Positions 49,216 through 61,423 of a DNA stretch of 61,423 nucleotides are shown here, piece by piece. Below the pieces are notes generated by a model. That model worked only from the letters and a program-made list of their open reading frames with translations. It made no database searches and was not told the origin of the DNA. The translations under genes and the position numbers were made by a program. Each line of letters opens with the position of its first letter. The first letter of the stretch is position 1. Source of the DNA: Pezizomycotina sp. ARF18 (lineage: Eukaryota > Ascomycota); the NCBI GenBank assembly GCA_002224055.1, contig AZLU01000102.1, positions 78,812 through 140,234 on the forward strand, read 5' to 3'.

Positions 49216-50806
49216 TTATACCCAGTCCACGGGATTCTTCAGAACGTTAAGTAGCCGTTCTTCGTGGGAACCTGGAGCTGGAGAATGCATGTACTCCCAC
49301 CTTGCCGTGAGCGGTAAAGACATGAGTATCCTATAAGGCGCAGAAGCCATCAGTGTTAGTATCAATCTTAGACTGAGAAAAACAAAATTACTGCGGGATG
49401 TGTTCTCTGAGGCACGTACGATTCAATTCTGGCATTTGGCGTGTTGAGACCGAAGGCCGTCCCGCGGTCGTGAACGAGGTTAAACTCGACGTAGCGTCCC
49501 CTGCGGAGCTGCTGCCACTCTTTTTCCTCGGGGGTGAAGCTCATATCCTTCCGCTTCTCGAGTATCGGCAAATAGCTTGGAAGGAATGCATCCAGGCAGT
49601 CCTTCGCGAACGAGAACAGCTGGTTCGGGTCCTTGTCGTCTAAATCGTCAAAGAATATACCACCGATGCCTCTCCTCTCTCCCCTGTGCTTGACGTTGAA
49701 GTAATCGTCGCACCACTTCTTGAATTTCGGTAGTAGTTCTTGTCGTGTTTGTCGCAGGCTTCCTTGATGGTCTTGTGGAAGTGGATCGCATCCTCATCGA
49801 AGAGGTAGCTCGGCGTCAGATCCGTGCCGCCGCCGAACCACCAAGCCTGGGTCGAGCCGTCCAGGTTCATCGTCTCGAAGTAGCGGTAGTTAAGGTGGAC
49901 CGTAGGCGCCATTGGGTTCTTCGGGTGCAACACCATGCTCAGCCCCGCGGCGAAAAAGTCCAGCGGCTCGCCGGCATCGTTACCCAGGTTCTTGTGGTCT
50001 ACACGCATCTTGGCGACTGCCGCGGAGGTAACTTGCCGTAGACGATAGAAATATTTACGCCGGCCTTCTCAAAAACATTACCGTCCTGGAGCACGCACGA
50101 AACCCCGCCGCCCAAATTGGAGTTGGAGTTTGCTGTCTTCTGGACTTGCTTGTCACCGGAACCCGTCCGCCTTTCCGTCACGTTGCTGCCTCTTGTCCAC
50201 ACGTCCGTGATGAACGGTTTCCCGTCGGCAGCTTCAAGAGCAGCAACTATCTCTGCTTGCTTCTCCCGAATGATTGCTCCATCCTGAGCCTCATTGGCGA
50301 GGATTCTGTGACCCCGTTTCATATTTCTAGTTATGGCTTGTTTGTTAATTCCTTTTTTTTTTTTCTAGAAAAAAAAATCTGATGAGCTTATTCTGAAGGT
50401 TCTGTGAGCTTACGAGCACTTCGTCCGCCGGCTTGGAGGCAATGTCGAGCGCGACGAGCATTCCAATAGTAGGGAGCTCTGCAACAAAGATAATTTCACT
50501 AGTTAGTATATTATCTTCTTCCATCTCCCTCTCTCAGTTCTTATATTTTAGCTTACAATAGTATAATATCCAAAACCCATTGTCAAGGCGACAGCCGCAG
50601 CAGCATAAATACTCGAGCGCTGTACCATTGTAGCTGTTGCGTTCTTCCTTGAGGGCTGGTAGAAAGCCCCGCTGTCCTTTGACCTCGTGCGCTTGACCGA
50701 GTTGCCGATGGGACATTTGAGAGCCTGCAGCTTGGACGTAATGCGAGGCGGCAAGGGCGCGCCCGAGCCCAAATTTCGAGCTATAACATACTAAAGTCGA
50801 CGACAT
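49216..50806 (-). CDS. HEM13: coproporphyrinogen III oxidase, aerobic (HEM13/CPOX)
   Basis: Sixth step of heme synthesis: oxygen-dependent oxidative decarboxylation of coproporphyrinogen III to protoporphyrinogen IX. ATG 50806 begins [20 protein letters not shown], a basic presequence, followed by a hydrophobic segment [20 protein letters not shown]. Catalytic-domain blocks follow: [97 protein letters not shown] (partly off frame), [20 protein letters not shown] and [13 protein letters not shown]. It ends LKNPVDWV at 49216. The presequence plus membrane segment fit a mitochondrial intermembrane-space enzyme, unlike the cytosolic S. cerevisiae Hem13. It is convergent with the Hook gene (472 bases between stops). 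Introns lie near 50340-50410 and 50480-50555. Confidence 0.92.
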
Positions 50807-53436: not shown

Positions 53437-54030
53437 ATGGCCCGCTCCAAGTTTAAGGACGAACACACCTTCGAGAAGCGCAAGGCTGAGGCGGAACGTA
53501 TCCGCCAGAAGTACACTGACCGTATTCCGGTTTGTCTTTCTCTTCTGCTCTTTCTCCTATTCTATAACCCCGCAGGCTTCCTCCCGTTCTCTTACTGACG
53601 GTCGGCAAATACAGGTCATCTGCGGAAGGTTGAAAAATCGGATATTGCGACTATCGACAAAAAGAAATACCTCGTTCCGGCCGACCTCACGGTCGGTCAG
53701 TTCGTTTACGTAATCCGCAAGCGTATCAAGCTGTCCCCGGAGAAGGCCATCTTCATCTTTGTCGACGAAGTCCTCCTCCGACGCCGCATAATGAGCTCGA
53801 TTTACGATGAGCACAAGGACGAGGATGGTTCTTATACATCACGTGCGTTTTCACCACCTGCTCCTTTCACCATATACATCCTTTTTTTTTTTTTTTTTTT
53901 GTTTGGAAGCAATACTTCTCCATCGTCGTCATTCGTTTATCCCTTGTGATTACACAAAAACGTAGATATGCTGATCATTCGTGCCCTTTCTGAATAGATA
54001 CTCGGGCGAAAAACATTCGGATTTGCTTGA
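53437..54030 (+). CDS. ATG8: ubiquitin-like autophagy protein Atg8
   Basis: Atg8 is conjugated to phosphatidylethanolamine on the phagophore and recruits cargo receptors. ATG 53437 follows AAAAAAA; exon 1 reads [20 protein letters not shown] then [11 protein letters not shown]. Intron 1 is 53530-53614, exon 2 resumes with VIC, and after a one-base loss continues [40 protein letters not shown] and IFIFVDEVL. Several more one-base losses disturb the LPPTAAIM-equivalent segment, then [13 protein letters not shown]. Intron 2 is 53843-53997. The last exon encodes YSGE and, after a lost base, the TFG motif, so Atg4 would cut after that glycine and release only Phe-Ala. About five or six single-base deletions in under 360 coding bases make this the clearest ruler of the sequence error rate. 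Confidence 0.95.
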
Positions 54031-56176: not shown

Positions 56177-58455
56177 ATGCCGATCGAGGCGATTCAAGGG
56201 AATTCTAGCCTGCAGAACCAGGCCTATTTCGCACTTCGTTTCTCAACGGCTGCTAACAAAGATCAGGCGCGCCAATATCATTCATCATTCGGTTCGCGGT
56301 AGTATCAAAATATCATCATGTCCGCGGCGTGGTGTTCAGGTAAGTAGCTGGTTGGTCTATCTGTACCGGTTTTGAATCAAAGGGGGCGTTTCAGAGCGAA
56401 GCAACTAATTCTCCTACGGAATCGCATGTAGGTCTCATCAGCAGCCTGCTGCGCCCAAATATTGCATCTTCGCAAGGCCATTTTCCTTTGGCCATGCCTT
56501 CTCCTTGTCGGAAATCAAGGCAGCCGACTCAGTTGGCCAAACACATCGGCCCCCGTGTGCGCTGTTATTCGACCTGATCAAGGATCGCATTTGTTACACA
56601 AGAGAAGTGCCAGGGTCATGACCACGCCGTCAAAGTTGTTCAAGCTCGTCTTCCTCTGCCAACACCATCCCAGCAGTTGAAAGATACGACATTAACGGAG
56701 CAGATTTGGAGAAGGATGGAGCAACAGCAGATTCACCTGCACGTCAGATTGCTTTACTGTGAGAAAAATATAGCCATTAATTAATTTCCTTTTTTTCCTT
56801 TTGCTTTTGGGACTACAGCTCTCCTCCCTCGACAAGCGAAAAGAAGGAAAGAAAGGAAGAAAGATGAGGGAAACAGTGATATTGAGAGCATATTGTGTTA
56901 TTTATAATCCTTCATAATCATATATCTGAATCCATGCTAATATATATGCCACGGAGGATATTGGTTCAGCATACACCAGCGCAGCCGTTGAGCACCTCGC
57001 GAGTCTCATACAAGCTGAGCTGCCGCCGAACGAGTCTAACGGACGGGCTCCTTCTGTGAGCTTCTACACGGCTTTGAACTATGCTGCAGCTAAGAAAATC
57101 GCAACGAACGTGGAAAATTTGGAGATGTCAGCTCACAGGACGGCGCTAACGTCGAAGGCTCTCAAAAATTCCCATACTAGCATGTGCCTGTGGAGTGGCA
57201 GTACCGAAATGGGCGATTTCGTTCGTGATGCGGCAGCAACTCCAGACGAGGAGGAAAAAGGTATTACGGGTGGTTTCCTGGTCTCCCTCGAGGGTTACGA
57301 TGAGGAGGGCATCTGGGTATTTGCCCGAGCTTCAACGGTAAGCGTTTTTCTTGCTCACAAATAAGAATCAAGAAAGGGAAAAGGGTGGGAAAGTTTCCTT
57401 AACCCCAAGGAACTTCTTTTCCTGATTTTTTTCTTTTTCTTTTTCTTCCTTTTATATGGTCAAACAGATTGCTCTACTAACGAGACATTCAAGATAGGAC
57501 GTACTACCTCAGGGCAAGGTATAAGAGATATGCACAGATATCGAAGGCATCTGGGGCTCAAGCAGAAGTGCGACTCCATAGCACGGCGTTCGCTCACCAA
57601 ATAGCAGTATTAGGCTTTACCGGTCTGATCGCGTGGTGGGTCTGGTTTACTTTATGACTTTTGTCCGGAAGGATACGTATGGGTGGGACGTTATGGTAGG
57701 CTACCCCTATCTCATCTACCCTTTCATTTTCCACGCTATAGCCTTTTGGTGGCAAAGAACACGGACAGCAGGTGGACATTGAAAAAAAAAATTTTTTCCC
57801 TAACTAATCAAGGAATAGGAACCCGGTAAGGCACTCGTTTATGTGATCTGGTTGGCTCAAGCGTAAGAGATCAGCGTGTAGAATACAAATTGATGCTCGC
57901 TGCTTTTTCTTCATATGGTTCCTATAGTTACCTATCTTGTAGGATTGTCCACTATTGCAGGTAATGAAGCCATATCCTCCAACACTTCACTTACATTTTT
58001 ATTTCATCTATTTACTACATTCATGATTCCATACCTACTGACTAACTGTTTGCTCTTGAATCAAGGTGGTTATCTTTTTTCCTTGCAAGGAATAGGAGGT
58101 ATCATACGCTCGCTCCTCGAGACGACTATATCGCGACGTCAGATGGCTCTATACGAAAAGCACGGCTTCGATGTAGAAAAATGGGACGAGCTCGTCGCAG
58201 ATGCAAAGGATGTGCGGCGCGAGATCAAAAAAGTGGCTGCGGAGTATGGCGTACGCTGGATGGGAACGGAGTGAACGATTTAAATCAGGCAACAAAGGAG
58301 GAGGAAGAGGCGTCGAAGAAGGTCGGGAAACTTCTGAAGAAGGAGAGAAAAAATCGGAAAAGTCGAAAGACGAGGATCAGAGCGAAGAGGACGACGATAG
58401 TGATAGTAGTGCCAGCTCAGATAAGGAGAAGGCAACAGAGAAAACTTCGTCATAG
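56177..58455 (+). CDS. mcu: mitochondrial calcium uniporter, fungal MCU
   Basis: MCU is the pore of the inner-membrane Ca2+ uniporter. A basic presequence ending in the RCYST-like motif (about 56550-56580) is followed by LPLPTPSQQLKDTTL. The N-terminal domain reads VEHLASLIQAELPPNESNGR, WSGSTEMGDFVRDAAAT and LVSLEGYDEEGIWVFARAS. A coiled coil (YYLRARYKRYAQISKAS) leads to TM1 (IAVLGFTGLIAWW, GLVYFMTF). The selectivity filter reads GWDVM, then EP from a 7-nt microexon, then VTYLVGLSTIAG: the fungal WDxxEP signature. After another intron come GYL, a NREVSY-equivalent segment in a shifted frame, and TISRRQMALYEKHGFDVEKW with DVRREIKKVAAEYGVRWMG. An acidic tail (EDQSEEDDDSDSSASS) ends at 58455. 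The exact start is uncertain because frames shift in the presequence. Confidence 0.9.
57696..57818 (+). other. MCU intron before the selectivity-filter microexon
   Basis: A 123-base intron with donor GTAGGC directly after the ATG of GWDVM, a good branch point (CTAAC at 57800-57804) and acceptor AATAG. If retained it stays open for 28 codons, encoding a hydrophobic stretch (VGYPYLIYPFIFHAIAFWW), before TGA at 57780-57782. Confidence 0.8.
57819..57825 (+). other. mcu: 7-nt coding microexon (MCU filter Glu-Pro)
   Basis: GAACCCG sits between an AG acceptor and a GTAAGG donor. It supplies Glu, Pro and the first base of Val. The exon before ends in phase 0 at GTT ATG and the exon after starts TT ACC TAT CTT, so the three join in frame as WDVM-EP-VTYL, exactly the conserved filter. 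The two filter acids (Asp codon 57688-57690, Glu codon 57819-57821) are therefore on different exons. The following intron is 57826-57927 (102 bases). Confidence 0.88.
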
Positions 58456-59637
58456 GTAAGGGTTTTTTTTTTTTTTTTTTTTTTTTTTTCTAGCGAGGGA
58501 TATTTTGGATAGAACGCAGCGAGCGAAATACTTGGAAGCAATAACAGTCTATAATATCTTGCTTGTTTACTTGTGATAAAGTTTCAGTTGAAGAATAATG
58601 AGCAACTCCTTTGGAGAAATCCAGTAATGAATGCATAATACACATCTGTTATTTCAATCTATAAATACGCTATACAGAAATACGTTGAAATGGCCGGATA
58701 ATATCATATATTATCGATGCATGAAATACCTGACGATATATATATAGCTATATATATATAAGGAAATCGTCTTGGACTTCACCTAATAATATTAACTGCA
58801 ACGAATATATCGGTCCGTAAACCGAGTTTCTTGCTGTAGATGCTGTAGAAATTATATGTTATATATTATTATACCAATAGATTATTTTCTTTTAAAGAAT
58901 AAATCCTTCCCTGAGTGGTTAAAATCGTCTGTAAAGTGAATATGCGAGAAAATCGCACTCGTATACTATCCATATCAGAATATAATATTATAATGCTTGA
59001 ATATACAAAGGAAAGAAAGTTATAGCCTAGGCCTCTGGAGGCCGCTGCTTCTTCTACATGTGTATCCGGGTTAATCTATATTGCTAATCACCCTACTACT
59101 GGATCCCAATTATATCCATTAGTACTTATTCCTTACTTAACTCAAGGATTCACGTATATATAATATACTCTCAGTATTATATCCTTCCTGCTTTGTATCT
59201 TTTTATATACGAGCGCCACTGTTGCACGAAATTAGGCGGGTTAATAACTATCGATCGGCGGACAATATAATAATAAGACTTTTTTAGACTCGGTTCTTGT
59301 TTACCTTTTTTTGATTTATTTATCTTTTTTCCTTTTTTTTTTCTTTTTTTTTTTTTCGGTTACGTTCTTTGTTCGTGTCGCGAATGCTCAATTTTTGGCC
59401 CCAACAAACACTCTCTTTACCGCTCCCAAAGTAATCATCAAATCATCATTCCATCATTCATCGACACTCTTCCCATCACAAAACACCTAATCGTCCATCG
59501 TCCCATCGTCCATCGAGCGGCTGGTTATTATCTTCTCAAAGAACCAGCACCTGTTCTCCATACCCCACTGCCAATACTCGTACCTTCCGCTCCTTAGCTT
59601 CCCCGTATCTGCCTAGGTGTCGGACTTACGAAAAGGG
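58456..59637. other. intergenic region with T27 tract; PEX16 promoter and leader
   Basis: Starts a few bases after the MCU stop with a run of 27 T (58463-58489), continues AT-rich with a TA palindrome (58732-58760), and ends with a CATC/TCCATCG-rich leader (59440-59520) before PEX16. No gene was recognised. Confidence 0.5.
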
Positions 59638-61038: not shown

Positions 61039-61423
61039 CTCTACATTACTACCTCGTTTATGGCTTCACTCCTTCTGTTTTCCATAAGGACATAGCTAAT
61101 ATAAATGGTGTTCTGCAATTCTTTAGCTGCGACTCTGTAATGGTAAATATTTTCGATCTTTGGACCGTTTGAATTTGATATACCTCAGCTTGAGCCCTCT
61201 CTTCTGTTTTCTCCGTCTTCCCCGTCAAGATAGACTTGGTCTGGTAACCCCTGGCGCGCTTCTTTTGTGTATTCATTTGTAAAATTTTCTATTGTCGTCT
61301 ATATTTATTATATAATGCCCTGTACATCATTTATTTTCCTCTTGGAAGATATATCAGCTCAAAACATACTTATTGATCCCCCCCCCAAAAAAAAAAAAAT
61401 GAGATACATTTACCATGTAATCG
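61039..61423. other. PEX16 downstream region
   Basis: AT-rich sequence ending in C9A12 near 61379-61399. A minus-strand reading from 61275 (MNTQKKRARGYQTKSIL) is Lys/Arg-rich and meets a possible GT donor, but no family or second exon is recognised, so it is not called as a gene. Confidence 0.4.

Follow-up and report, generated by a model that had tools for sequence, protein, structure and literature searches.

The pore filter of a fungal MCU homologue is split over exons and carries its Glu-Pro pair on an inferred 7-nt exon

The window analyzed here, i.e., the whole stretch of DNA from position 1 to position 61423, is part of a 46.36-Mb genome of 408 contigs and contains a gene encoding an MCU homologue together with an ATG8 gene (Table 1). 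Moreover, pieces resembling coproporphyrinogen oxidase lie in overlapping open frames on the minus strand at 49371-50364, one of which matches 1tk1. Scans of the whole 61-kb window with Rfam (at gathering thresholds) and for tRNAs gave no match.

Table 1. Positions of the MCU gene parts around the pore filter and of the ATG8 gene in the window.
Feature	Position	Strand	Basis or remark
ATG8 gene, introns 53530-53614 and 53843-53997	53437-54021		spliced alignment
MCU gene	about 56.9-58.5 kb	+	protein match
Exon before the filter, DRTYYLRARYKRY ... to GWDVM	57494..57695	+	frame broken in the assembly
Intron, phase 0, 123 nt, GTAGGC ... CTAAC ... AATAG	57696..57818	+	120/120 references
7-nt exon GAACCCG = Glu, Pro, first base of Val	57819..57825	+	paths, alignment
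Intron, phase 1, 102 nt, GTAAGG ... CCTATAG	57826..57927	+	120/120 references
33-nt exon, (V)TYLVGLSTIA(G)	57928..57960	+	phase 1 on both sides
Intron, phase 1, 105 nt, GTAATG ... CTAAC ... CAAG	57961..58065	+	120/120 references
Exon after the filter, GYLF ... ISRRQ ... VRREIKKVAAEYGVRW	58066..58258	+	frame broken within first 50 bases

The first exon start given for the MCU gene (57494) is approximate and the upstream intron differs between references, while 58258 marks the end of the conserved part and not the end of the exon. The first and the third intron hold CTAAC near the acceptor, which we take to be the fungal form of the branch site, and the donor GTAGGC of the first intron deviates from the usual consensus, which counts against the proposed splicing. 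Directly past the second intron lies another tiny exon of 33 nt, which the initial annotation did not mention. Skipping of this exon would keep the frame because it is flanked by phase 1 on both sides, and its loss would remove most of the segment TYLVGLSTIAG. Downstream, an acidic, serine-rich stretch was observed at 58282-58456 in a frame other than that of the preceding conserved part, and it probably constitutes the tail of the MCU protein.

Reading the plus strand directly, the upstream exon ends with GGG TGG GAC GTT ATG (GWDVM), GAACCCG lies between the AG of GGAATAG and the GT of GTAAGG, and the reading of VTYLVGL resumes with TTACC just past CCTATAG. The first intron runs from GTAGGC to CCCTAACTAATCAAGGAATAG and the second from GTAAGG to TTCCTATAG. 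With the 7-nt exon included the product reads WDVMEPVTYLVGLSTIAG, and the WDVMEP filter is obtained only in this way. Skipping of the exon yields WDVMLPIL followed by a stop, four codons on. Retention of the first intron adds 28 foreign residues past WDVM before a stop is reached, and retention of the second intron adds 13 residues past EP before a stop. The layout GWDVM / GAACCCG / VTYLVGL proposed in the initial annotation was thereby recovered exactly, including the positions 57695, 57819-57825 and 57928 and the stop that follows when 57695 is joined to 57928. Likewise, frames, path enumeration and spliced alignment all support its placing of the filter Asp and Glu on separate exons, with the Glu on an exon of seven bases. 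The analysis thus confirmed at the sequence level that the pore filter of this MCU homologue is split over exons, with the Glu-Pro pair on an inferred 7-nt exon.

For the spliced alignment, protein references were compared to the DNA with a home-made aligner allowing GT-AG introns and frameshifts. Over 56901-58470 the introns 57696-57818, 57826-57927 and 57961-58065 were chosen with 4/4 references, and the upstream introns and breaks differed between references; over 57494-58262 the same three introns were chosen with 120/120 fungal MCU references. Two controls were done with the first 30 references. When EP was deleted from the reference, the 7-nt exon was chosen in 0/30 cases and all 30 alignments took a single intron from 57696 to 57927. 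When EP was replaced by KH, the 7-nt exon was still chosen in 30/30 cases, which shows that the aligner's choice is largely driven by the frame, for which the 7-nt exon is needed. The fit of its sequence to Glu-Pro is evidence separate from this frame-driven choice.

To assess how often such an exon is expected by chance, the 232-nt gap between the flanking exons was shuffled 20,000 times with its dinucleotides preserved. Seven bases of any sequence between AG and GT occurred in 9,433 of these shuffles, and the form GARCCNG between AG and GT in 11; in the 61-kb window the latter is present as one copy on both strands taken together, namely the 7-nt exon itself. Enumeration of all GT-AG paths spanning the gap, with a minimum intron length of 40 nt, resulted in 18 two-intron paths that are open and in frame, one of which reads WDVMEPVTYL, in agreement with WDxxEPVTYL. 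A further path keeps the EP and reads WDEPVTYL, so that the two residues before EP are lost, and 16 lack the EP. Only one single-intron path is in frame; it lacks the EP and carries a long insert. Paths with a retained intron and single-intron paths were ruled out because they lose the EP or reach an early stop. The number of open paths without EP leaves room for a mature transcript that reaches the filter by another route or lacks Glu-Pro altogether, resulting in a variant pore. This is extremely improbable, as these alternative paths delete or replace the EP or add long foreign stretches, and EP is present at the matching place in 120/120 relatives among the matches listed.

The hand-joined product including the 7-nt exon scores 58.7 bits with the Pfam family MCU (PF04678; cut-off 30.8), and the skipped product scores 20.0 bits. 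A protein search found 224 relatives; among the matches listed, WDxxEP is present in 118/120, and the other two show WN/WExxEP. Named relatives among these matches include Friedmanniomyces, Exophiala, Cladophialophora, Sarea, Neofusicoccum, Cyphellophora and Sphaerosporella, all of which we take to be Pezizomycotina. The fungal MCU structures 6c5w, 6dt0, 6d7w and 6dnf belong to the same family and have WDxxEP in the alignments shown. Of 338 proteins fetched, 276 were compared over the core; close relatives were not found among them, and the best identity was 60-62 of 93 residues. In its own genome one MCU match was found by a six-frame search with a protein query in which only the best candidates were scored. 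A search of this genome with PF04678 gave no match and is uninformative because the control genomes gave no match either.

Judged by its best matches to fungal proteins and by the literature, the gene is tentatively classified as a fungal MCU of the MCUp type. Pittis et al. 2020 place Ascomycota proteins in the fungal paralogue group MCUp, and Ascomycota MCUp mediated no Ca2+ uptake in their tests in yeast or HeLa cells; the same source notes that other authors considered fungal MCUs to suffice for uptake (PMC7423614). Because Ascomycota MCUp failed these uptake tests as described there, uniporter function should not be assumed for this gene, and the term ion-conducting uniporter used in the initial annotation is doubtful (PMC7423614).

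The reading frame of the MCU gene is not intact in the assembly. In the alignments with 120 references the core is broken at five or six places within 57494-58262, most commonly near 57550, 57590, 57640, 58074-58077, 58094 and 58108, and each reference shows on average 4.55 losses and 1.08 gains of single bases. Further breaks outside the core were found with four references over 56901-58470. The breaks flank the filter on both sides, a feature that the initial annotation did not mention. Such breaks might indicate a decaying pseudogene, in which the exon is a relic and its splicing is no longer required. The breaks in the core are mostly single lost bases, though, and the ATG8 gene in the same window, which encodes a highly conserved protein, was hit by the same type of change: alignment with a fungal ATG8 reference, itself checked against a PDB chain, showed six single-base losses and no gains over roughly 340 coding bases. 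In both aligned genes about 1-2 bases are lost per 100 coding bases, and the longest stop-to-stop open reading frame anywhere in the 61-kb window comprises 250 aa. Moreover, the best-scoring relatives match in 60-62 of 93 residues across three downstream breaks, and the filter residues are retained in a gene that is otherwise broken in frame. Decay of the gene is therefore highly improbable; it was rejected because ATG8 carries the same pattern of losses.

Based on the ATG8 pattern and the absence of any open reading frame above 250 aa in the window, the breaks in the MCU gene are most likely assembly errors in which single bases were lost. Such errors cannot have created the 7-nt exon because more than 100 bases part it from each of its neighbors. 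At the rate of loss seen in the two genes a base could be missing in or beside the 7-nt exon, but the frame to its left and right argues against this. As open reading frames in the window (1-61423) do not exceed 250 aa and both MCU and ATG8 are broken, claims on reading frames in this window need caution.

Intron sites in other fungi were judged from fragmentary proteins whose sequence appears to continue into an intron, so that the positions and phases of these sites are tentative. The 120 C-terminal fragments considered are those among the matches listed, of 645. Of these, 23 are contiguous through the filter and 39 start at or inside the filter and are uninformative. Residues other than EPVT stand directly before YL in 48 of the 120 (in some cases only one or two residues), and in two of the 120 an apparent intron before YL is read through. 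The position between EPVT and YL thus appears to be a common intron site in fungal MCU. Foreign residues directly before VT, with EP missing, occur in 5/120 listed fragments (P0125, P0131, P0138, P0144 and P0183; in P0183 just MV precedes VT), and foreign residues directly before EPVT in 3/120 (P0129, P0149 and P0234). On the N-terminal side, the filter is included in 37 of 98 newly numbered fragments (at least 101 listed). Fragment P0245 ends at GWDTM, and P0261 reads GWDVME followed by foreign residues, which would represent a third intron site. These fragments suggest that each of the two intron sites occurs singly in other fungi; both introns together were found in none of the listed fungal fragments. 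In fungi, introns thus seem to occur often in the pore region.

Taken as a whole, the best explanation, which we hold with high confidence, is a single gene of the MCUp type in which two short introns leave a constitutive 7-nt exon encoding Glu-Pro, with the frame breaks most likely being assembly errors. Two ordinary short introns, one in phase 0 between WDVM and EP and the other in phase 1 between EP and V, would leave Glu-Pro on a 7-nt exon simply because they sit seven bases apart. The spliceosome would recognize each short intron as a unit and pair its two splice sites (intron definition), and for this reason the very small size of the exon should be no obstacle. The introns would probably be removed one after the other, and the inclusion of the exon would be constitutive. 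Skipping of the exon or retention of either intron would produce a nonsense transcript with a premature stop, which may place both pairs of splice sites under purifying selection.

The initial annotation had gone further and made the production of a uniporter depend on the splicing of this exon. In the sense of regulation this is unsupported, since inclusion only needs two short GT-AG introns of 123 and 102 nt. In this respect the 7-nt exon does not stand above other essential introns: if either intron is retained, the protein is cut short as well. A regulated switch, in which skipping gives a nonsense transcript and lowers MCU under some condition, would be in line with the stop after four codons, and a microexon switch is on record for Xlr2 of Trichoderma virens (PMC11121469). 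It is nevertheless unlikely: skipping needs a 232-nt intron in place of the two short ones, and microexon lengths, according to the same source, are usually multiples of three that keep both forms in frame (PMC11121469), which seven is not. A search for a regulatory RNA fold over the 7-nt exon and its introns gave nothing beyond chance (z 0.62): of 200 shuffles, 148 folded equally well or better. It is likewise very unlikely that variable inclusion, either by skipping of the 7-nt exon with nonsense decay or by in-frame skipping of the 33-nt exon, sets or changes the MCU-type pore. The exon would gain greater importance only if its inclusion proved variable. Independent of this, an exon of this size poses a risk of mis-annotation for channel homologues, as a gene finder missing the seven bases would predict a truncated or filter-less protein.

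Microexons are usually 36 bp or less in length (PMC11121469); the exon described here has 7 nt and GT-AG introns on both sides, as judged from sequence and spliced alignment, and its 33-nt neighbor falls within this length as well. Among the open-licence papers listed, no title or abstract was found to describe a microexon in fungal MCU, and to this extent the initial statement that such an exon is undescribed holds; as a type it is less exceptional, because other fungal genes have published exons of 1, 6 or 8 nt. At the level of its title, one article deals with how the uniporter regulator MICU1 is spliced in muscle (PMC8909990). The 7-nt MCU exon adds a case from a channel family to the known tiny exons within conserved motifs of fungal proteins.

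In P450 genes of Phanerochaete chrysosporium, microexons of 2-10 codons were described, the shortest exon having 6 bp (PMC1184071), and an 8-nt exon lies in the I-helix motif AGHETT of a P450 (cited in PMC12940212). The likeness to the MCU gene consists in very small fungal exons, one of them with residues of a conserved motif (PMC1184071; PMC12940212), whereas the proteins are enzymes of a white rot fungus and not an ion channel homologue (PMC1184071). Xlr2 of the filamentous fungus Trichoderma virens likewise has a microexon; its inclusion is glucose-dependent, and the two isoforms are functionally distinct (PMC11121469), whereas constitutive inclusion is proposed for the MCU exon. In Fusarium CYP621A a 1-nt exon lies within the conserved motif PKG, in 20 orthologues according to the abstract and in 24 genes according to the discussion, and is confirmed by SRA reads (PMC12940212). 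As in MCU, this is an ultra-small fungal exon in a conserved motif that was inferred first from a broken phase and whose omission breaks the frame (PMC12940212); it differs in that it comprises 1 nt, occurs in many genes and is confirmed by reads (PMC12940212), whereas the MCU exon comprises 7 nt and is read from the DNA of one genome.
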